A stretch of DNA of 64,000 nucleotides. Origin: Acidaminococcus massiliensis (GTDB lineage: Bacteria; Bacillota; Negativicutes; Acidaminococcales; Acidaminococcaceae). The DNA lies in NCBI RefSeq assembly GCF_900095825.1, contig NZ_LT608315.1:2107628-2171627 (forward strand), read 5' to 3'. The notes below the pieces were generated by a model, which was not told where the DNA came from, did not search any database, and saw only the letters and a program-made list of their open reading frames with translations. Both the position numbers and the translations under genes were made by a program. Shown here piece by piece: positions 13,446 to 23,096 of this stretch. Every line of letters begins with the position of its first letter. The first letter of the stretch is position 1.

Positions 13446-16400
13446 TTACTTGAAATACTGCACACCGCCCAGGAACAGGGGCTGCAGTTTGTTGCCTGGG
13501 ATGTTCTTCATCAGGCCGTCAGTGAACCGTTCTGTATGGCCCATCTTCCCCAGGATCCGGCCGTCGGGGCTGGTGATGCTCTCAATGGCATACAGGGAAC
13601 CGTTGGGGTTGTAAGGACTTTCCAGGGTGGGATCCCCAGCCTGGTTCACATACTGGGTGGCTACCTGGCCGTTGGCGAAGAGCTTCTTGATTTCCTCTTC
13701 CGTGGCCACGAACCGGCCTTCCCCATGGGAAACAGCCACCGTATGGATATCTCCCGGTTCCGTCAGGGCCAGCCACGGGGACTTGTTGGAAACCACTTTC
13801 GTCTCCACCATCCGGGAAATGTGCCGGCCGATGGTGTTGAAGGTCAGGGTGGGAGATGTTTCCGTCAGAGGACGGATGTCTCCGTAAGGCACCAGGCCCA
13901 GTTTGATCAGGGCCTGGAAGCCATTGCAGATTCCCAGGGCCAGGCCGTCCCGGTTGTACAGGAGATCCATCACGGCTTCTTTCAGGGCCGGGTTCCGGAA
14001 CATGGTAGCAATGAACTTGCCGGAACCTTCCGGTTCGTCACTGGCAGAGAATCCGCCAGGGATGGCCAGGATCTGGGCTTCCTTGATCCGTTTGGCCATT
14101 TCTTCCACGCTCTCTTTGATGGCTTCCGCTGTCAGATTCCGGATCACGCAGATATCGGCTTTGGCACCGGCTGCTTCAAAGGCAGCAGCGGTGTCGTATT
14201 CACAGTTCAGGCCCGGGAACACGGGAATGAAGACCCGGGGCTGAGCCACATTATACGGTGCAGTGAGAGGCAGGTCGTTCCGGTAATAGGGCATCCGACA
14301 GATATCCTTTCCGGAATCCTTCACCACAGAGGGGAATACTCCTTCCAGGGTACGGGTATAGGCAGCCTTGATTTCGTCCAGGGTAATGGCCGTGTCGTTG
14401 ACGGTGACTTTCCCATCGTCAGTCAGGGACCCCAGCACCAGGAAGTCGTTGCCTGCAAAGACTTTTTCCACATCGGCTCCCGGTGCCATTTCTACCAGGA
14501 AACCGCCGGGCTGCAGGGTGAACAGGCATTCCTCATGGAGGAAGGGTTTCACGAAGCCAAAGCCCAATCCGTTGCCCAAGCACATGGTGGAGATGGCGGC
14601 TGCCACGCCCCCTTCCTTCACCACACCGGCGGTGAGGATCCGTTTGCCCAGGATGGCTTTGTGGACATTGTCTAAGAGAGTCCGGAGGGCCGGGTAATCC
14701 ACCACTTCGTGCTCATCGCAGGGCACGGGGATGAAAACCACGGTGTTGCCGGCCTGTTTGAATTCGTTGGAGATGGTATCGCGGCCGTCCATGACCCCCA
14801 CTGCAAAGCAGATCAGGGAAGGCGGGACTTCCAGATCCATGAAGGTACCGCTCATGGAATCTTTGCCGCCAATGGCCGGCAGTTCCAGTTCGCAGCAGGC
14901 TTTATAGGCACCCAGGAGAGCGGCAAAGGGCCGGCCCCAGGTATGTTCCGTATGGAGTTTGGGGAAATATTCCTGCATGGAAAGACGCAGTTTCTTCGGA
15001 TCGGCGCCCATGGACGCAGCCCGGCACACGGCTTCCACCACCGCGTACATAGCCCCGTGGTACGGGCTCCAGCAGCACACATTGGGATCATAGCCGCTGG
15101 CCATGATGGAGGTAGCGTTGGTCTTGCCATGGAGGACGGGCAGACGGGCTGCCATACCTTCGGTACGGGTCAGCTGGTTCCGGCCGCCGTAGGGCATCAG
15201 TACGCTGCCCCGGCCGATGGATCCGTCGAACCGTTCACCCAGTCCTTCTTCGCTGCATACGTTCAGCCGGTCTAAGTTGGCCAGCCAGGCTTCCTTGATG
15301 TCCTTCTTCCCTTCCACTTCTGCAGGGGTGCTATTGAAAGGAGAGGTTTCTTCCACTCCATCCACCACAACATTGGACTTTTGAGGAATGCCGTTGGTGT
15401 CCAGGAATGCCCGGGACAGGTCCACGATCTTTTCCCCTCTCCAGTACATCACCAGACGGGGATCTTCCGCCACTTCAGCCACTACCGTGGCTTCCAGATT
15501 TTCTTTGGCGGCAGCAGCCATGAACTTGTCCAGGTCGCCGGCGGCAATGCACACCGCCATCCGTTCCTGGGATTCACTGATGGCCAGTTCCGTGCCGTCC
15601 AGGCCTTCGTACTTCTTGGGTACCTTGTCCAGATTGATCACAAGACCCGGCGCCAGTTCCCCGATGGCCACAGAGACGCCGCCAGCCCCGAAGTCGTTGC
15701 ACCGTTTGATGAGACGGGTCACTTCCGGATCCCGGAACAGCCGCTGGATCTTCCGTTCGTTGGGAGCGTTCCCCTTCTGGACTTCTGCACCGCATTCGCT
15801 GAGGGACTTGGTGGTGTGTTCCTTGGAGGCACCAGTGGCGCCGCCCATGCCGTCACGGCCGGTACGGCCGCCCAAAAGGATGATCAGGTCGCCGGCAGCT
15901 GGCCGTTCCCGGACCACAGCATCCCGGGGAGCAGCCCCGATGACGGCCCCTACTTCCATGCGTTTGGCCACGAATTTGGGATGATAGTATTCTTCCACAG
16001 AACCGGTGGCCAGACCGATCTGGTTGCCGTAGGAGCTGTACCCGGCAGCGGCCCCCAGGGTGATCTTCCGCTGAGGCAGCTTGCCCTTCAGGGTCTTTTC
16101 ATAAGGAGTCCGGGGATCGCCGGATCCGGTGACCCGCATGGCCTGGTATACATAGCTCCGGCCGCTGAGGGGATCCCGGATGGCTCCGCCCAGGCAGGTG
16201 GCAGCGCCCCCGAAAGGTTCGATTTCGGTGGGATGGTTGTGGGTCTCGTTCTTGAACATCACCAGCCAGTCTTCTTTTTTGCCGTCCACGTCAATGGGGG
16301 CCACGATGCTGCAGGCGTTGATTTCTTCCGAAGCATCCAAATCGGGGATCTTCCCTTCCTTTTTCAGCTTCTTGGTGGCCAGGCAGGCCATGTCCATCAG

Positions 16401-17222
16401 GGTGATGGGGCGCTGGGTATCTTTCCCATAGACGAAATCCCGGTCTTTTTTATACAGGTCGTAGGCTTCTGCCACCGGCTGGGTGTAGACACCGTCGGTG
16501 ATGGAAACGTTTTCCAGTTTGGTTTCAAAGGTGGTGTGCCGGCAGTGGTCGGACCAGTAGGTATCCAGCACCTTGATTTCGGTGATGGAAGGATCCCGGT
16601 CTTCTTTTTTAAAGTATTCTTGGATGAAAGCCAGATCTTCCAGGCTCATGGCCAGTTCCTGTTTGTTCAGGAAATCTTCCAGCCCTTTCCGGTCCAGGTC
16701 CCGGAACCCCTTCAAGACGGCTACCGGTTTGGGGACGTCCCAGGTCATATCCAAAGTTTCCGGTTTTTCGATGGCGGCTTCCTGGGCTTCCACCGGGTTG
16801 ATGCAGTAATCCTTGATTTTTTCAAAGTCGGCGTCGGACAGATCCCCTTCCAGCAGGTATACTTTGGCGGCTGCCACAATGGGACGCTGTCCCTGGGTGA
16901 TCAGCTGGATGCACTGAGCGGCAAAATCTTCTCTCTGGTCATACTGGCCGGGGAGCAGTTCCACGGCAAAGCTCCGGACCCCAGCAGGGATCTCCAGTTC
17001 TTCGTCCCGGACCACATCCACCGGCGCTTCGCTGAGCACCAGGTTCCTGGCAGCCTGGTAGTCCTCCTCGCTGAGGCCTTCCAGATCATACCGATTGACG
17101 ATCCGGACGCTTTTCAGGTTCTTCAGGCCCAGGGTCTGCTGCAGATCAGAACACAGACCTGCTGCTTCCACAGCATATGCTTTCTTCTTCTCCACATAAA
17201 TTCTTGTAATCTTGTCGCTCAT
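13446..17222 (-). CDS. purL: Phosphoribosylformylglycinamidine synthase, single-chain PurL
   Basis: A 1258-residue FGAM synthase fusing the PurS-like N-terminus, the two AIRS-like synthase halves and a C-terminal glutamine amidotransferase. The synthase contains YWSDHCRHTTFET near residue 225 and GGDS-type loops. The glutaminase contains FPGLNCEYD, GGFSASDEPEG, the nucleophile in LGICNGFQ and the histidine/glutamate pair in SHGEGR. It converts FGAR, glutamine and ATP to FGAM. Size and order fit the second single-chain clade found in clostridia. It lies 38 kb from the main pur operon, 11 bases after the GNAT gene, and ends at its own terminator. Confidence 0.97.
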   Translation of the reverse strand: MSDKITRIYVEKKKAYAVEAAGLCSDLQQTLGLKNLKSVRIVNRYDLEGLSEEDYQAARNLVLSEAPVDVVRDEELEIPAGVRSFAVELLPGQYDQREDFAAQCIQLITQGQRPIVAAAKVYLLEGDLSDADFEKIKDYCINPVEAQEAAIEKPETLDMTWDVPKPVAVLKGFRDLDRKGLEDFLNKQELAMSLEDLAFIQEYFKKEDRDPSITEIKVLDTYWSDHCRHTTFETKLENVSITDGVYTQPVAEAYDLYKKDRDFVYGKDTQRPITLMDMACLATKKLKKEGKIPDLDASEEINACSIVAPIDVDGKKEDWLVMFKNETHNHPTEIEPFGGAATCLGGAIRDPLSGRSYVYQAMRVTGSGDPRTPYEKTLKGKLPQRKITLGAAAGYSSYGNQIGLATGSVEEYYHPKFVAKRMEVGAVIGAAPRDAVVRERPAAGDLIILLGGRTGRDGMGGATGASKEHTTKSLSECGAEVQKGNAPNERKIQRLFRDPEVTRLIKRCNDFGAGGVSVAIGELAPGLVINLDKVPKKYEGLDGTELAISESQERMAVCIAAGDLDKFMAAAAKENLEATVVAEVAEDPRLVMYWRGEKIVDLSRAFLDTNGIPQKSNVVVDGVEETSPFNSTPAEVEGKKDIKEAWLANLDRLNVCSEEGLGERFDGSIGRGSVLMPYGGRNQLTRTEGMAARLPVLHGKTNATSIMASGYDPNVCCWSPYHGAMYAVVEAVCRAASMGADPKKLRLSMQEYFPKLHTEHTWGRPFAALLGAYKACCELELPAIGGKDSMSGTFMDLEVPPSLICFAVGVMDGRDTISNEFKQAGNTVVFIPVPCDEHEVVDYPALRTLLDNVHKAILGKRILTAGVVKEGGVAAAISTMCLGNGLGFGFVKPFLHEECLFTLQPGGFLVEMAPGADVEKVFAGNDFLVLGSLTDDGKVTVNDTAITLDEIKAAYTRTLEGVFPSVVKDSGKDICRMPYYRNDLPLTAPYNVAQPRVFIPVFPGLNCEYDTAAAFEAAGAKADICVIRNLTAEAIKESVEEMAKRIKEAQILAIPGGFSASDEPEGSGKFIATMFRNPALKEAVMDLLYNRDGLALGICNGFQALIKLGLVPYGDIRPLTETSPTLTFNTIGRHISRMVETKVVSNKSPWLALTEPGDIHTVAVSHGEGRFVATEEEIKKLFANGQVATQYVNQAGDPTLESPYNPNGSLYAIESITSPDGRILGKMGHTERFTDGLMKNIPGNKLQPLFLGGVQYFK

Positions 17223-17233
17223 GACAGCCTCCC

Positions 17234-18415
17234 TTAAAAATACTCATTGATAAAATTATTCTCCCGGGGGAACAATTTGTCAAGGATTTCCAGTGCATTT
17301 TCACTGTCCCCATAAATCATGCCAGCCTGTTGGAGCTGCCGGGCCCCATAGAGTCCGAAGAACAGCTGGGTGAAGGTTCCCGCATCCAGCAGCACTTCCG
17401 GATCATCCAAGGTATTCAGCAGCTGGATGCCCTTTTCCGTGAAGTCCAGTTTCACCAGCATGGTGTTGAGGGCGATCTGTTCATCTTTCAAGCCCAGGAC
17501 CAGTTTCTTTCCCACCAGTTCCCGGGGTACGGGCATAGCTTTCAGACAGGCCGCGGCATTGAGGACCCGCCCCATCATGAAAGGGGCTTCCTGAGGGGCC
17601 AGGGCCTGGTCCGGCAGCTGGAGGTATGTCAGATCATCCTCCGCAGCCAGCCATTTCAGCCTTTGATAGATGCCGGCCAAGCCTTTGAAATACTGGAGCA
17701 GCCGGATCCTGCTGGGCGCATCCACAGCCAGGAGTTCCTGGACCGTCACCGTCCCACTCTCCCTATTATACAACGCATAAGCCGTCGGTGCACCGTCAAA
17801 CTTTACAACAACCGTCTCAAAATTCTCCTGGGCTGCCGTCACTAAGGTATTTTCCCAGACCCGGTGATCCCGCTCGGCATAGCCGTGGTACCGGACCATG
17901 GTTTTGGCGTAAATCGGAGCCAGCAGGCTTTCCGCCTGCCGGGTATCTACCCGTTCCGCCGTAAAGCCGTCCAAGATCCGGCCTGCCAGGTCCAACTGGG
18001 CCAAGGGCAGGGTATACCGTTTCCGCAGATGGGTCCAGGCAAAGCCGTAAGGCTGGTAGATCCCGGCATAAATGGGCATGAGGATGGCAAAAGGCACCTG
18101 CATGGCCCGGAGAGTGGTAAAAGCCGTCTCCATCAGCTGGCCCATTGCATGCTGTCCCCGGGCCACTGGATCTGTAGCTACGCCTACGATATAAGGGACC
18201 TTCCAATCCTTTCCCCGGACCCGCAGCACATAGGGGTTCAGATGGAGCATAGTCTGGAGCCTCCCATCCTGGAACCCGCCCAGGATCCGGTTCTGCTTCA
18301 AGGCATATTCCTTGAAATACCATTCGTAAAAGGGCGTCCCCTTCTTCTCAAAGCAGTAATCCCATAGGTCCGCCGCCTGGGACAGGGTATCCTGCTGGAG
18401 CAAACGAAAATCCAT
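17234..18415 (-). CDS. Eis-like GNAT acetyltransferase with C-terminal sterol-carrier-like domain
   Basis: The 393-residue protein has the Eis layout. A GNAT domain covers about 1-130 (VGVATDPVARGQHAMGQLMETAF is the acetyl-CoA loop and helix), a second GNAT-fold domain about 145-290, and an SCP2-like domain about 295-393. The extreme C-terminal hydrophobic/acidic tail provides the family's catalytic carboxylate. Eis proteins acetylate amines on diverse small molecules; the native substrate here is unknown. It sits between purL and the DUF2156 gene with 11- and 13-base gaps, suggesting one transcript. Confidence 0.8.
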   Translation of the reverse strand: MDFRLLQQDTLSQAADLWDYCFEKKGTPFYEWYFKEYALKQNRILGGFQDGRLQTMLHLNPYVLRVRGKDWKVPYIVGVATDPVARGQHAMGQLMETAFTTLRAMQVPFAILMPIYAGIYQPYGFAWTHLRKRYTLPLAQLDLAGRILDGFTAERVDTRQAESLLAPIYAKTMVRYHGYAERDHRVWENTLVTAAQENFETVVVKFDGAPTAYALYNRESGTVTVQELLAVDAPSRIRLLQYFKGLAGIYQRLKWLAAEDDLTYLQLPDQALAPQEAPFMMGRVLNAAACLKAMPVPRELVGKKLVLGLKDEQIALNTMLVKLDFTEKGIQLLNTLDDPEVLLDAGTFTQLFFGLYGARQLQQAGMIYGDSENALEILDKLFPRENNFINEYF

Positions 18416-18428
18416 GGCAATCCTCCTT

Positions 18429-19316
18429 TTAGCGGATGATCGTATTGTATTTTTTCACCATGAACACAGGCTTATAGGATTCCTTGGCTTCCCGGAGGCC
18501 CTCCTTGCCCATATCCTCTTCCCGGTTGATGTAGGTCACATCCGGCCATTCATGGGCGATGTATTCCTTGTTGATGGCGGTGTACAGGCCCCGGATGTCC
18601 GGATCCGCCTTTTCCACGTGGATCACCGCCGTATTCTTGCCGGTCCGCTCGCCAAAAGTAAAGGCCTTCACCTGGCCGTCCAGCCGGATCAGCCCGCCCC
18701 GGAGCTGGAGTTTGTCCAAATTATCCAGGCCTTCCCGGATGGCATCATATTCCGCCACAATGGAAGGATCGGTCAGTTCCCGTTCTTCCACCCACTGTTT
18801 GCCATAGGCGATGCATTCATCTTTGTTGGCCAGAGTGATGGGTTCGTAGACGAAATCCGGATGGTCCTTGATGAATTGATTGTAATGGTTCTTTTTGCCG
18901 TGGAGCTTGCGCCCGCTGAGGCTGGCCAGGCTGGCACGCTGATACACATAGTCCCAGTTGTCCCGGTCAGGGGTGAAGGTATTCACCTGAGGCAGATACT
19001 TCTGGAACCGTTCGATGGTATGCTCGTAGATGCCATGCATTTCAAAAGGTTCCCCTTTGAAATACTGCTTCAGGGCACAGATCACTTTGGGCAGATCCTC
19101 GTTGACTCCTCCAAACGGAGGCAGGACGAAGGTATTTCCGTTCACGGTCACTTTGATGAGCAGACAGCCATGGCTGATGCCCCAATAACTGTCATACTGG
19201 TTCCGCCAAATAAAGATGGAACCGAAACAGCATTCCGAGGCATGGTAATCCTCTTCGGTAAAATAATCATCGAATATCGGCTTGTCGTCAATACTGATGT
19301 GCTTGAATTCTAAAAT
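18429..19316 (-). CDS. DUF2156 (phosphatidylglycerol lysyltransferase-like) protein, apparent ATT start
   Basis: A GNAT-fold protein of the DUF2156 group. Starting from GTG 19151 would lose a conserved N-terminus that is plainly encoded upstream in frame: LEFKHISIDDKPIFDDYF, then SECCFGSIFIWRNQYD. The frame is open to an AGGGAG ribosome site (19325-19330) but contains no ATG, GTG or TTG near it. The codon 8 bases after the site is ATT (19314-19316), giving 295 residues, the usual family length. A TATAAT at 19361-19366 is consistent with a short leader. Function is unassigned; members often neighbour other acetyltransferases, as here. Confidence 0.8.
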   Translation of the reverse strand: MLEFKHISIDDKPIFDDYFTEEDYHASECCFGSIFIWRNQYDSYWGISHGCLLIKVTVNGNTFVLPPFGGVNEDLPKVICALKQYFKGEPFEMHGIYEHTIERFQKYLPQVNTFTPDRDNWDYVYQRASLASLSGRKLHGKKNHYNQFIKDHPDFVYEPITLANKDECIAYGKQWVEERELTDPSIVAEYDAIREGLDNLDKLQLRGGLIRLDGQVKAFTFGERTGKNTAVIHVEKADPDIRGLYTAINKEYIAHEWPDVTYINREEDMGKEGLREAKESYKPVFMVKKYNTIIR

Positions 19317-19416
19317 AAAAATCGCTCCCTCATTTGTAAGATGATTGATTTGTATCTATTATTATAACAGATGAGTCAAGAGGCATAAACTGCCAGCGGG
19401 CAGGCAACAGCCCCCC

Positions 19417-20025
19417 TTACAGCATCCCCATATCATTCAGCCGATCCACCCGGAAGCCGTAATCTTCCGTCTGGACTACCTGGACGAAGGCCGTATTGGC
19501 CAGGCTCATCCGCCACATATTATCAATGGGAAAGCCTAGGATCCGGCAGACCAGGAGCCGGATCAATCCTCCGTGGCTGACGCACAGGATGGTGCCGTCC
19601 GGTTCCATTTCTTCTACCAGATCTGTAAAGGCCTTCCAGCCACGTTCCTGAGAAGCGGCCAGATTTTCCTCCGCTGCCAGATCCACCTGTCCCGGCTTGA
19701 GGAAAATATCCCGGAGCGTATCCGGATCCTTTTCCTGGATCTCTTTCAAATGGTGGCCATCCCATTTGCCGAAAGAGATTTCCCGCAGGCCCGGCACCAC
19801 CATTGGTTCCAGGCCCCGAGCAGCAGCCAGAGGAGCAGCGGTTTCCTGGGTCCGGATCAAGTCCGAGGTATAGAGCGCATCCACTGGTACCCGGGATGCC
19901 CGGGTCACCAGGGCCGCCGCCTGCTTCCGGCCGGTATCATCCAAGGGATTGTTGCTCCAGCCCTGGAGGATGCCCTGCCGGTTGGCCAAGGTCTCCCCAT
20001 GGCGTACCAAATAAATCGTCTTCAT
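19417..20025 (-). CDS. Histidine phosphatase family protein (phosphoglycerate-mutase-like)
   Basis: The 202-residue protein begins MKTIYLVRHGET, with the catalytic RHG motif (H9 is the phosphohistidine). The second arginine is in TSDLIRTQETA, the acid in LREISFGKWDG and the second histidine in CVSHGG. This fits cobC/GpmB-like broad phosphatases; the substrate is unknown. ATG 20025 has AAAAGGA 8 bases upstream, whereas the 14-residue extension has none. It follows efp, separated by a terminator hairpin. Confidence 0.88.
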   Translation of the reverse strand: MKTIYLVRHGETLANRQGILQGWSNNPLDDTGRKQAAALVTRASRVPVDALYTSDLIRTQETAAPLAAARGLEPMVVPGLREISFGKWDGHHLKEIQEKDPDTLRDIFLKPGQVDLAAEENLAASQERGWKAFTDLVEEMEPDGTILCVSHGGLIRLLVCRILGFPIDNMWRMSLANTAFVQVVQTEDYGFRVDRLNDMGML

Positions 20026-20080
20026 AAAGCCATCCTTTTCTAAACATTCCAGGCCAGCAAGAAACAAAAGGATACAAAAC

Positions 20081-20102
20081 GGGGCTGTCCACGGACAGCC
20101 CC
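20081..20102 (-). terminator. Intrinsic terminator of efp
   Basis: GGGGCTGTCC (20081-20090) and GGACAGCCCC (20093-20102) form a perfect 10-bp stem with a 2-base apex, followed by GTTTTGT on the minus strand. It lies 12 bases after the efp stop. Confidence 0.75.
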
Positions 20103-20114
20103 ATTTTCTGCTTC

Positions 20115-20672
20115 TTAAGCTCTTGCAATGTAATCGCCGGTACGGGTATCGATCTGCAGCACATCCCCTTCGTTGATGAACAGAGGGACCTTTACGACAT
20201 AACCGGTATCCATCTTGGCGTTCTTGCTGCCGCCGGTAGCGGTATCCCCTTTGATCCCCGGTTCGGTTTCCACTACGGTCAGTTCCACCGTGTTGGGCAG
20301 TTCCACGCCCAGGATCCGGTCCTTGAAGGTGATGACCTTCACATCCATGTTTTCTTTCAGGAAATTCACGGCCTTGCCCAGCTGGTCCTTGTTCAGTTCC
20401 AGCTGATCATAGGTTTCATTATCCATGAACACATAGGTGCCGTCGGATTCATACAGATACTGCATGCCCTTTCTTTCAACAATGGCATTTTCCAGACGTT
20501 CAGCAGCGTTGAAAGTCCGTTCCACCACAGCGCCGGTGCACAGATTGCGCATCTTGGCCCGTACGAAAGCGGCGCCTTTGCCGGGTTTTACATGCTGGAA
20601 TTCAACGACCTGCCATGCATCGCCGTCAATTTCAACCGTTACGCCTGTTTTGAAATCATTTGTAGAAATCAT
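20115..20672 (-). CDS. efp: Translation elongation factor P
   Basis: 185 residues in three beta-barrel domains: a KOW-like domain (1-64), an OB domain (67-127) and a second OB domain ending in [17 protein letters not shown]. The modifiable loop reads VKPGKGAAF with K32 at the tip. EF-P binds between the P and E sites and relieves stalling at polyproline. I use ATG 20672 because GGAGG lies 8 bases upstream; the longer frame adds only five residues. It is downstream of the Xaa-Pro peptidase gene (40-base gap), an association common in Firmicutes. Confidence 0.97.
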
Positions 20673-20712
20673 GAAAACAACCTCCAAAATAGTAGTTTCT
20701 AATCTATAAGAA

Positions 20713-21762
20713 TCAAAGTTCTACCAATTCTTTCGGGACGGAAGTAAGCCGCTCACAGCCGTCCCCGGTGACCAGCACCGTGTCTTCGATCCGGACCCCG
20801 CCTTGGTCAGGCAGGTAGATGCCCGGTTCGATGGTCACCACTGCCCCTGCCGGCAGCGGCCGGTCATTGGCTTTGTTCAGCACCGGTTTTTCATGGATGT
20901 CCAATCCTACGCCGTGGCCCAGTCCATGGCCGAAATTCGGTCCATATCCTTTGGCAGTGATGAAATCACGCACAGCCCGGTCCACCTGGATGCCGGTCAG
21001 CCCGGCCTTCAGGGTCTTTTCCCCCAGCAGGTTGGCCTCAAGGACGATTCCATAGATTTCCTTCTGCCAGGGCGCTGCCTTCCCCACCACCACCGTACGG
21101 GTGATGTCAGAGCAGTAGCCTTCGTAGGTAGCACCGAAATCAAAAGTGATGAAATCGCCCGGCTCCACCACCTTTTCCGAAGCCACCCCGTGAGGCAGGG
21201 CACTCCGTTTCCCAGAAGCACAGATTGTCTCAAAGGAAGGTTTGGTGGATCCCAGCTTCCGCATATTGTATTCCAGCTCAGCTGCCAAATCGCTCTCTTT
21301 CCGGCCGGCCCGGATATGGGGCAGCAGCTGCAGGAAAGCCTCATCAGAAATCGCTACGGCCTTGCGGATCAGGGTCATCTCTTCAGGGGTCTTCACCGCC
21401 CGGAGACCTACCAGATTCACATTCTTCCAGCGGACATCCGGCAGGGCTTTTGCCAGAGCACACTGTTCCGTATAGGAAAAATAGTCTCCATCCAGGGCCA
21501 GGTTCTCAGAATTCGGCAGCTTGGCCGCTTCCGGCCAGAATCCATGCTGGTGTTCGATCAGTTCACATTCCGGAGACTGCTGGCGTACCTGCAAAGTATA
21601 CCGGGAATCCGTGATGATCACCGCCCGCCGGGGATCCACATACAGCAGGCTTTCTCCTCCTGTAAACCCGGTGAAGTACCGGATGGAGGAATCGCCTTTG
21701 ATAAAGATGCCATCCACCTTTTCCTGTTCCAGGAAAGTCCGCAGCCTGTCCAAAGCCTTCAT
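20713..21762 (-). CDS. Xaa-Pro aminopeptidase/dipeptidase (M24B family)
   Basis: 349 residues with a creatinase-like N-terminal domain (about 1-120) and a pita-bread catalytic domain. The dimetal ligands are visible: D in [16 protein letters not shown] and in SDITRTV, H in [13 protein letters not shown] in TIEPGIY and E in GVRIEDTV. Such enzymes remove an N-terminal residue before proline. GAGGAG precedes the ATG. An inverted repeat GTCGAAC/GTTCGAC (21784-21804) lies just upstream in the leader, and efp follows. Confidence 0.93.
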
Positions 21763-21875
21763 CCTATCGTCTCCTCGTCCATGGTCGAACAGAATCAGTT
21801 CGACTAATCTATTTTACTCTTAAACCCCTGAAAAAAGCAAGGGTTTCTATACAGTTTGTTACAAATAGTTTCGGT

Positions 21876-23096
21876 TCATCCTTTCAGCCGGCGTACCAAA
21901 GAGAAAGGTTCCATCCGGGAATCTCCTTTGGCAGTAAAGATCATCTGGGCATGGGGAGCGGCCTGGATGGGATTCCCTTCTCCATCCTGCATCTCTTCCA
22001 AGGTCCAGGAGAAGATTTCCCCGCCGGGAGTCAGCACTTCCAGCTGCTGGCCTTCCTTCACATGGTTCCGCTGTTCCAAGGCTGCCCGGCCGGTGCCAGG
22101 GTCAAAGCCCTTGACCAAGGCCACGAAATCCGCGCTCTGTTCATAGGAACTGGTGGTATAGACCTGGTCTTCCGGGCCGGTCCTGCGGACAGCGAATCCC
22201 GTAGTATAGGGCCGGTGGGACACTTTCTCCAGTTCTTCCCGGAGACTCTCCGGCACGGTGAAATGGGCCGGATCCTGCCAACACAGATCGATGGCCTTCC
22301 GGTAGGCGCTGACCACCGTAGCCACATAATGGACGCTTTTCATCCGTCCCTCGATCTTCAGGCTGCTGACCCCTGCCTCCATCAGTTGGGGCAGGTACTC
22401 CATCAGGCACAGGTCTTTGGAATTCATGATATAGGTGCCCCGCTCATCTTCCGCTATCGGGAACACCTCTCCAGGCCGGTTCTTTTCCGTCAGGCCGAAC
22501 TCCCAGCGGCAGACCTGGGCACAGGCGCCCCGATTGCTGTCCCGGCCGGTGAAATAATTGCTCAGGAGGCAGCGGCCGGAATAGGAGATACACATGGCCC
22601 CATGGACGAAGACTTCCAAGTCTGCGGAGATTTTTTCCCGGATCTCCCGGATTTCCTGGATAGACAGTTCCCGGGCCAGCACCACCCGTTCTGCTCCCAG
22701 CTCTTCCCAGGCCTTTGCCGCAGCCCAGTTGGTCACATTGGCCTGGGTGCTCACATGGAGTCCCAGTTTGGGTACCGTCTTTCGAGCCGTCATCCAGACG
22801 CCCAGATCAGAAACCAGCAGGGCATCTACCCCGGCTTCTTCCAGATTCCGGAGGTATTCCGGCAGCGCGGTAAGATCGCTGTTGTGGGGGTAGATGTTCA
22901 CGGTCACATAGACCTTCTTTCCCCGTGCATGGGCAAAAGCCGCCAGTTCCCGGATCTCCTCCAGGGAAAAATTGGCGGCAAAAGCCCGGAGCCCGAAAGC
23001 CTTTCCTCCCAGATAAACGGCATCGGCTCCGTACAGCAGGGCCATCCGGCCCTTTTCCAGGCTCCCGGCGGGAGCCAGCAGTTCTGGTTTGTTCAC
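21876..23096 (-). CDS. trhP: Peptidase U32 family protein, TrhP-like tRNA hydroxylation factor
   Basis: 406 residues beginning KPELLAPAGSLEKGRMALLYGADAV in the family manner, with the U32 signature EVFVHGAMCISYSGRC and the later cysteines RGACAQVCRWEF. In B. subtilis and E. coli TrhP-type U32 proteins form 5-hydroxyuridine at tRNA position 34. The neighbourhood (mltG, DUF1292, ruvX, ireB, alaS) matches the B. subtilis yrr cluster that holds these genes, which supports this over the rRNA-modifying RlhA. The start is GTG, overlapping the mltG stop by four bases. Confidence 0.85.
   Translation of the reverse strand: MNKPELLAPAGSLEKGRMALLYGADAVYLGGKAFGLRAFAANFSLEEIRELAAFAHARGKKVYVTVNIYPHNSDLTALPEYLRNLEEAGVDALLVSDLGVWMTARKTVPKLGLHVSTQANVTNWAAAKAWEELGAERVVLARELSIQEIREIREKISADLEVFVHGAMCISYSGRCLLSNYFTGRDSNRGACAQVCRWEFGLTEKNRPGEVFPIAEDERGTYIMNSKDLCLMEYLPQLMEAGVSSLKIEGRMKSVHYVATVVSAYRKAIDLCWQDPAHFTVPESLREELEKVSHRPYTTGFAVRRTGPEDQVYTTSSYEQSADFVALVKGFDPGTGRAALEQRNHVKEGQQLEVLTPGGEIFSWTLEEMQDGEGNPIQAAPHAQMIFTAKGDSRMEPFSLVRRLKG

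Follow-up and report, generated by a model that had tools for sequence, protein, structure and literature searches.

A gene for a protein of the DUF2156 group raises a simple question in the stretch of DNA analysed here (64,000 nucleotides from Acidaminococcus massiliensis, hereafter the window): where does its translation begin, when no ATG, GTG or TTG (collectively NTG) lies within range of its ribosome site? An earlier note on this DNA had proposed an ATT codon as the start. We followed this codon through the family of the window (Acidaminococcaceae), its class (Negativicutes) and other classes of the phylum, with AUH standing for AUU, AUC or AUA and with the residues of the DUF2156 protein counted from ATT 19316-19314 of the window. 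Our overall reading, to which we give a probability of roughly 0.8, is that the AUU is a real start, that non-NTG initiation at this gene is old and class-wide, and that selection would preserve a weak start, discriminated against by IF3, so as to limit the amount of a probable acetyltransferase. The sequences show the start site in the family, its conservation, the ribosome site and a start of the same type in infC; the low yield, the IF3 dependence and the acetyltransferase activity are the parts of this reading that we infer.

Results

Start of the DUF2156 gene in the window

The gene occupies 18429..19316 on the minus strand (295 codons and the stop) and encodes an LPG_synthase_C-domain protein with a tandem-GNAT fold, as assigned from Pfam PF09924.15, the AlphaFold2 model and a match to 2HQY. 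The minus-strand frame that contains it extends over 308 codons, beginning at 19355 and closed by the stop at 18429. Not until the GTG at 19149..19151 (minus strand), which encodes residue 56, does this frame have an NTG, and a start restricted to NTG would cost 55 residues, just as the earlier note stated. The Shine-Dalgarno site AGGGAG (19325..19330, minus strand), recognized from the sequence, the G-rich peak and the duplex energy described below, is separated by a spacer of 8 nt from ATT at 19314..19316 (minus strand; CGATTTTT from the site to the start), which agrees with the correct spacing claimed for it. The second codon is TTA (19311..19313, minus strand). Another in-frame ATT is present at 19322-19320, just 2 nt from AGGGAG.

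The GTG at residue 56 is a normal start codon and, if it were the true one, the open frame upstream would be due to chance. To this reading we give next to no credence. Residues 1-55 are conserved (an alignment of 33 sequences has F31, W37 and R38 in all of them) and are aligned to 2HQY from its residue 2. They open the fold, as helices and strands in a confident model (mean pLDDT 88-96 per ten-residue block), and residue 56 itself falls inside the modelled strand 51-58. Moreover, the first downstream NTG corresponds to residue 56 in only 4 of the 125 class loci with AUH starts described below and varies in position among loci between residues 7 and 101; no later start common to the orthologues was found. 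The GTG start was rejected on N-terminal conservation, the alignment to 2HQY, the model and the NTG positions in the class.

Another candidate is the ATG at 19333-19331 of an overlapping short frame (ATG AGG GAG CGA TTT TTA TTT TAG, 19310-19333, minus strand), which ends inside codons 2-3 of the long frame; ribosomes that started there would have to enter the long frame by a shift within the T-rich stretch. The short frame was seen by eye only in the four closest species (L001-L004) of the 56 family loci and is therefore probably a chance occurrence, whereas ATT is kept in 55/56. Moreover, the ATG of the short frame touches the ribosome site and is without one of its own. We rejected the frameshift, which we consider very improbable, because the short frame is missing from the other family loci.

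Codons 1 and 2 in the family

The DUF2156 protein is present in 56/59 genomes of the family, and the DNA of all 56 loci was read; the protein of another genome of the same genus (G004) is 95% identical to that of the window. Codon 1 is ATT in 55/56 family loci and TTG in 1/56, and codon 2 is TTA in 55/56. In the 56-locus codon alignment, conservation of these two exceeds that of every other degenerate codon in the gene and comes next after that of the Trp codons. One of the 55 ATT loci (G021) has TTG as codon 2, which is an alternative possible start. The internal Ile codons of the 56 loci comprise 420 ATC, 396 ATT (42%) and 118 ATA, and codons are mixed throughout the other columns that reach 60% Ile (seven in all), while TTA accounts for 13% of the other Leu codons in these genes. 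Codon 1 is nearly invariant while internal Ile codons mix and thus behaves as a start codon, not as an internal Ile. Sequencing error as the source of ATT was also rejected, because ATT is shared by 55 genomes (55/56 family loci), and the concern in the earlier note that resequencing might show ATG or TTG here can be set aside.

Among all loci with ATT at residue 1 alone, 63/64 have TTA as the next codon, and U is found at -1 in 50/63 loci starting at residue 1. One idea on the invariance of TTA is that it avoids TTG or CTG, either of which would give a second start, and another idea is that the region stays unpaired. Pairing of U at -1 with A37 of the initiator tRNA is a further idea on the context of ATT-TTA. 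The strict second codon is a testable hint on what makes an AUU start usable.

Start codons across the class and beyond

A match to the protein is present in 238/252 class genomes (at least 90% complete). We collected 80 loci outside the family from 79 genomes, hand-picked across genera among the matches listed, to give a class set of 136 loci (56 + 80) from 135 genomes; a second copy in G022 (L057) was excluded from this set, and L095, which covers residues 214-295 alone, was excluded as well. AUH without any NTG at residues 1 and 2 was found in 125/136 loci, each from its own genome, which together with ATT in 55/56 family loci upholds the proposed start. NTG at residue 1 or 2 was found in 10/136 and another arrangement in 1/136, and the weak start is therefore not indispensable. 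A start of the DUF2156 gene at AUU 19316-19314 is well supported by these sequence comparisons, according to which the start codon is also a class-wide feature, with the predicted start one codon downstream of the window's position in much of the class.

In 58/125 loci, 33 of them in the window's family, the stretch between the upstream stop and residue 1/2 is free of in-frame NTG, and the conserved N-terminus thus needs a non-NTG start there; in 34/58 of these forced loci, no NTG follows before residue 20. In several loci the upstream stop is inside the ribosome site, for example in the family coded f30 (TAG-GAG-GCG-AGT-CCT-ATT-TTA). The other 67/125 loci have an in-frame NTG somewhere upstream, the nearest being at codon -2 in 27, mostly touching the ribosome site. 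In at least 8/67, an upstream NTG is preceded, at a distance of 4-11 nt, by an exact match to a ribosome site, in a check that counted exact matches alone, so that G-U pairing was uncounted and GGGGG sites were rated weak (duplex energies were used separately). Judging from their sequence, two of these loci that are still counted among the 125, G086 and G087, probably start at GTG, and G038 may start at ATG. An in-frame NTG at residue 7 or 9, as found in 39/125 loci, is beyond the reach of the ribosome site, yet little protein would be lost if it were used.

The start was assigned to residue 1 in 63 loci, invariably as ATT followed by TTA, and to residue 2 in 62 loci (32 ATT, 17 ATC and 13 ATA), where it is forced in just 17/62 (12 + 5). 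Two members of the class, G063 and G066, have ATG and then TTA at exactly these codons. Moreover, 37 named loci (L058-L094), some of which share genomes with the 136 set, were read by eye. ATT at residue 1 was found in 7/37 (Acidaminococcus, Phascolarctobacterium and an Acidaminococcaceae MAG), ATA at residue 2 in 14/37 (Selenomonas, Mitsuokella and other Selenomonadaceae), ATC at residue 2 in 4/37 (Pectinatus), ATT at residue 2 in 4/37 and ATG in 6/37, two of which are MAGs titled Clostridia; 2/37 were unclear. In many of the named ATA loci, the ribosome site is touched or closely followed by an in-frame ATG or GTG.

A tree of 176 rows requires no fewer than 11 changes between AUH and NTG, and the third base within the class needs at least 17 changes among T, C and A and 5 between G and the rest. 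The third-base changes may be taken as weak evidence of selection against AUG. The gene appears to start at AUU, AUC or AUA in more than 100 other species, and the weak start thus seems to be kept by selection.

Outside the class, 40 loci were taken from a longer match list for other classes of the phylum. Their starts, labelled partly by script and partly by eye, are 26 ATG, 5 TTG or GTG, 5 ATC or ATT and 4 unclear. The earlier note had suggested a search of orthologues for ATG at this codon, and 19 of the 26 ATG starts are indeed at the ATT column (residue 1), 5 at residue 2 and 2 elsewhere. Similarly, the alignment of PDB 2HQY with the window protein begins at residue 2 of both, which places the Met of 2HQY at the ATT column. 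The five outgroup loci that perhaps start with ATC or ATT are L190 (G278), L193 (G314), L204 (G290), L207 (G488) and L216 (G450), and an in-frame GTG is present at codon -2 in L190, L193 and L216. AUH starts of this gene may predate the class, or they may have arisen anew.

Ribosome site, leader and probable promoter

A G-rich peak is located about 9-13 nt before the assigned start in both the residue-1 loci (63) and the residue-2 loci (62). The duplex energy of the ribosome site has a median of -11.2 kcal/mol over the 125 loci, compared with -6.05 in shuffles, and pairing of -6 kcal/mol or lower was found in 125/125 loci but in 51% of shuffles. Exact TATAAT occurs 15-74 nt before residue 1 in 73/136 loci in a search of 80 nt upstream, where about 10 are expected. 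On this enrichment, TATAAT at 19361..19366 (minus strand) of the window is a probable -10 box with a short leader; a consensus promoter scan of the window gave no promoter pair using it. Because TATAAT is so close, the leader is often short, with little room for a riboswitch. With regard to 5' structure as a switch, the RNA fold of 93 nt around the start was no better than that of shuffles (z -0.46).

Eis-like neighbour, infC and other window genes as controls

The next gene of the operon encodes an Eis-like GNAT + SCP2 protein (17234..18415, minus strand; Pfam PF13527, PF17668 and PF13530) and has ATG with AGGAGG at 18427-18422. The Eis-like gene begins 12-29 bp past the end of the DUF2156 match in 30/30 family loci with flanks, and its first codon is ATG in 29/30 and TTG in 1/30. 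This row alone served as the start-codon control, and the purL and efp rows, which have arbitrary ORF starts, were left out. Since the Eis-like neighbour is ATG-started, AUU is a property of the DUF2156 gene and not of the genomes or the assembly. Pairing with Eis is not the general reason for the weak start, in that among the 30 named loci L065-L094 no Eis-like neighbour was found except next to the two MAGs titled Clostridia. The DUF2156 gene is downstream of purL instead in 10/30 of these named loci. In the window, the genes at 13446-23096 on the minus strand are what we take to be those for U32 peptidase, PepP, EF-P, a phosphoglycerate-mutase-like protein, the DUF2156 protein, the Eis-like protein and PurL.

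For infC, the start was readable in 26 of 31 class loci (5 were missed by the search pattern) and read as ATA in 11 and ATT in 15; thus infC appears to start with AUA or AUU in the class, and it is likewise prone to wrong start annotation in these genomes. The infC of the window's genome (L105 about 1242-1262, G000:C4) has a probable ATA start behind GGAGGTGA. This ATA is likely, not forced, because codon -3 is a GTG that overlaps the ribosome site; several infC reads, that of the window's genome included, have an in-frame NTG close to this site. An in-frame TGA is present in the infC ribosome site in 14/26 reads, and ATG directly follows the TGA in 2, which leaves a forced start in 12/26.

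These infC reads also bear on the Selenomonas-like DUF2156 loci with the layout SD-ATG/GTG-ATT-xxx-ATA, where the NTG at codon -2 might be the true start and Ile at residue 2 an internal residue, as in the outgroups with Met-Ile. Of the 67 loci with any upstream NTG, 27 have the nearest one at codon -2, as described above, and several outgroups have ATG-ATT or ATG-ATA at residues 1-2. On the other hand, a spacer between the ribosome site and the codon -2 NTG is lacking in most cases, whereas the Ile codon has the usual spacing, and the same layout in infC includes the in-frame TGA in those 14/26 reads. Moreover, five loci with AUH at residue 2 alone are without any upstream NTG. We therefore regard a start at codon -2 in the Selenomonas-like loci as unlikely and keep AUH at residue 2 as their assigned start.

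With regard to other genes of the window, a crude ORF scan found at least 20 open codons before the first NTG in 10/48 kept ORFs; the scan is incomplete, in that the DUF2156 gene itself is missing, being covered by a longer antisense ORF. Inspection by eye of 9 of the 10 ORF extensions (all but that of the phosphoglycerate-mutase-like gene) gave no convincing second gene of the same kind in the window.

The protein

Pfam PF09924 (LPG_synthase_C, formerly DUF2156) is the sole Pfam domain of the protein (181.6 bits against a cut-off of 27.5, residues 25-290), and no NCBIfam model was found for it at E 0.001. The AlphaFold2 model has a pLDDT of 93.6. The Foldseek match of rank 1 is 2HQY (E 4.8e-31, TM 0.94, 32% identity), with a phmmer E of 1.4e-45 against the same protein. 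Among the best 50 Foldseek matches listed, MprF and A-PGS/L-PGS structures have TMq values of 0.58-0.67; MprF synthase domains, FemX and tandem GNATs are well behind 2HQY at TMq of about 0.48-0.67. An MprF-type membrane flippase domain is absent from the 308-codon frame.

According to excerpts of PMC10700544, 2HQY holds acetyl-CoA, and the DUF2156 protein HPB8_1270 of H. pylori takes part in acetylating RNase J. Relatives of the MprF and VlmA types are described in parts of PMC11630815 and PMC9379638 as aminoacyl-tRNA-using transferases. The window protein is a stand-alone two-GNAT-domain protein of the 2HQY type and, in view of the acetyl-CoA in 2HQY and the role of HPB8_1270, most likely an acetyl-CoA-using acyltransferase or acetyltransferase. 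An aminoacyl-tRNA-using, MprF-like role would come second, because 2HQY is by far the closest structure.

Discussion

How a start of this kind would work can be outlined in a few steps. The good Shine-Dalgarno site would bring the 30S subunit to AUU, where the initiator tRNA would mispair at the third base and IF3 would tend to reject the complex. Protein output would then be a small fraction of the AUG rate and, as with infC, would increase on a drop in IF3 activity. Selection would hold the start weak, permitting drift among AUU, AUC and AUA and seldom to AUG, and the Eis-like downstream protein would meanwhile be translated from its ATG. In S. aureus reporters, AUU and AUA gave about 10% of AUG, and ccpN reached up to 30% in rich medium, according to excerpts of PMC13009471, and the GTC start of sigR was repressed by IF3 according to a part of PMC5472188.

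The AUU may also be a real start without any regulation, namely, a low fixed output or a product of drift behind a strong ribosome site, in cells whose IF3 level is too steady to matter. We hold this to be possible, at somewhat below even odds. Drift among AUU, AUC and AUA is what is expected if weakness alone matters, and the AUU start of cvfC1 in S. aureus showed no medium-dependent effect in the excerpts of PMC13009471. However, the strict ATT-TTA of the family exceeds what mere weakness would need, and infC appears to have a start of the same type, so that a shared IF3 dependence is likely in principle. A stronger form of the regulated AUU start, which we put forward tentatively and with more doubt than conviction, is that the DUF2156 acyltransferase may be under IF3 control and may couple acetylation (or whichever group is transferred) to the status of translation initiation, in parallel with the autoregulation of infC, with ATT-TTA as a tuned initiation element.

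A start that is conserved class-wide sits in a probable metabolic or protein-modifying enzyme, not in a translation factor, and it offers a clean test of IF3 discrimination as a general regulator. Gene callers that accept only NTG are expected to give wrong N-termini for the DUF2156 protein in many species. Within the titles and abstract beginnings of the matches listed in the open literature, which includes few subscription journals, we recognized no report of a non-NTG start in DUF2156 genes, and in the open literature we found no ribosome profiling of Veillonella parvula.

Among known systems, infC is the classical example, as its AUU, AUC or AUA start is kept across many species and IF3 autoregulates its own synthesis via this codon. 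The DUF2156 gene resembles infC in that its AUN start is non-NTG, follows a good Shine-Dalgarno site and is kept in many species. On the other hand, infC encodes the discriminating factor itself, whereas the DUF2156 product is a probable acyltransferase, and codon 2 and the leader differ. With regard to the product, BT_3689 of Bacteroides thetaiotaomicron (2HQY) and HPB8_1270 are, like the window protein, stand-alone two-GNAT proteins of the DUF2156 group, but at the AUU column of the window BT_3689 has Met.

Characterized non-NTG starts are very few in bacteria, as stated in the excerpts of PMC5472188, and AUU has been proposed for a few lepA genes in a part of PMC1780047. The sigR gene of Streptomyces is similar in that a non-canonical start keeps its product scarce relative to the partner RsrA, and differs in that the start is GTC and not AUN, the product is a sigma factor and the control by IF3 was measured (passages of PMC5472188). 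In Staphylococcus, ccpN (AUA) and cvfC1 (AUU) likewise combine a conserved start and a strong ribosome site with about 1/10 of the AUG output; they encode unrelated proteins, and the conservation of cvfC1 is among staphylococci and that of ccpN between S. aureus and B. subtilis (passages of PMC13009471). The pcnB gene of E. coli is also reported to have an AUU start that limits translation of an enzyme, although the enzyme is another one. The start of the DUF2156 gene thus joins those of infC, sigR, ccpN, cvfC1 and pcnB, and the depth of its conservation is unusual among them.
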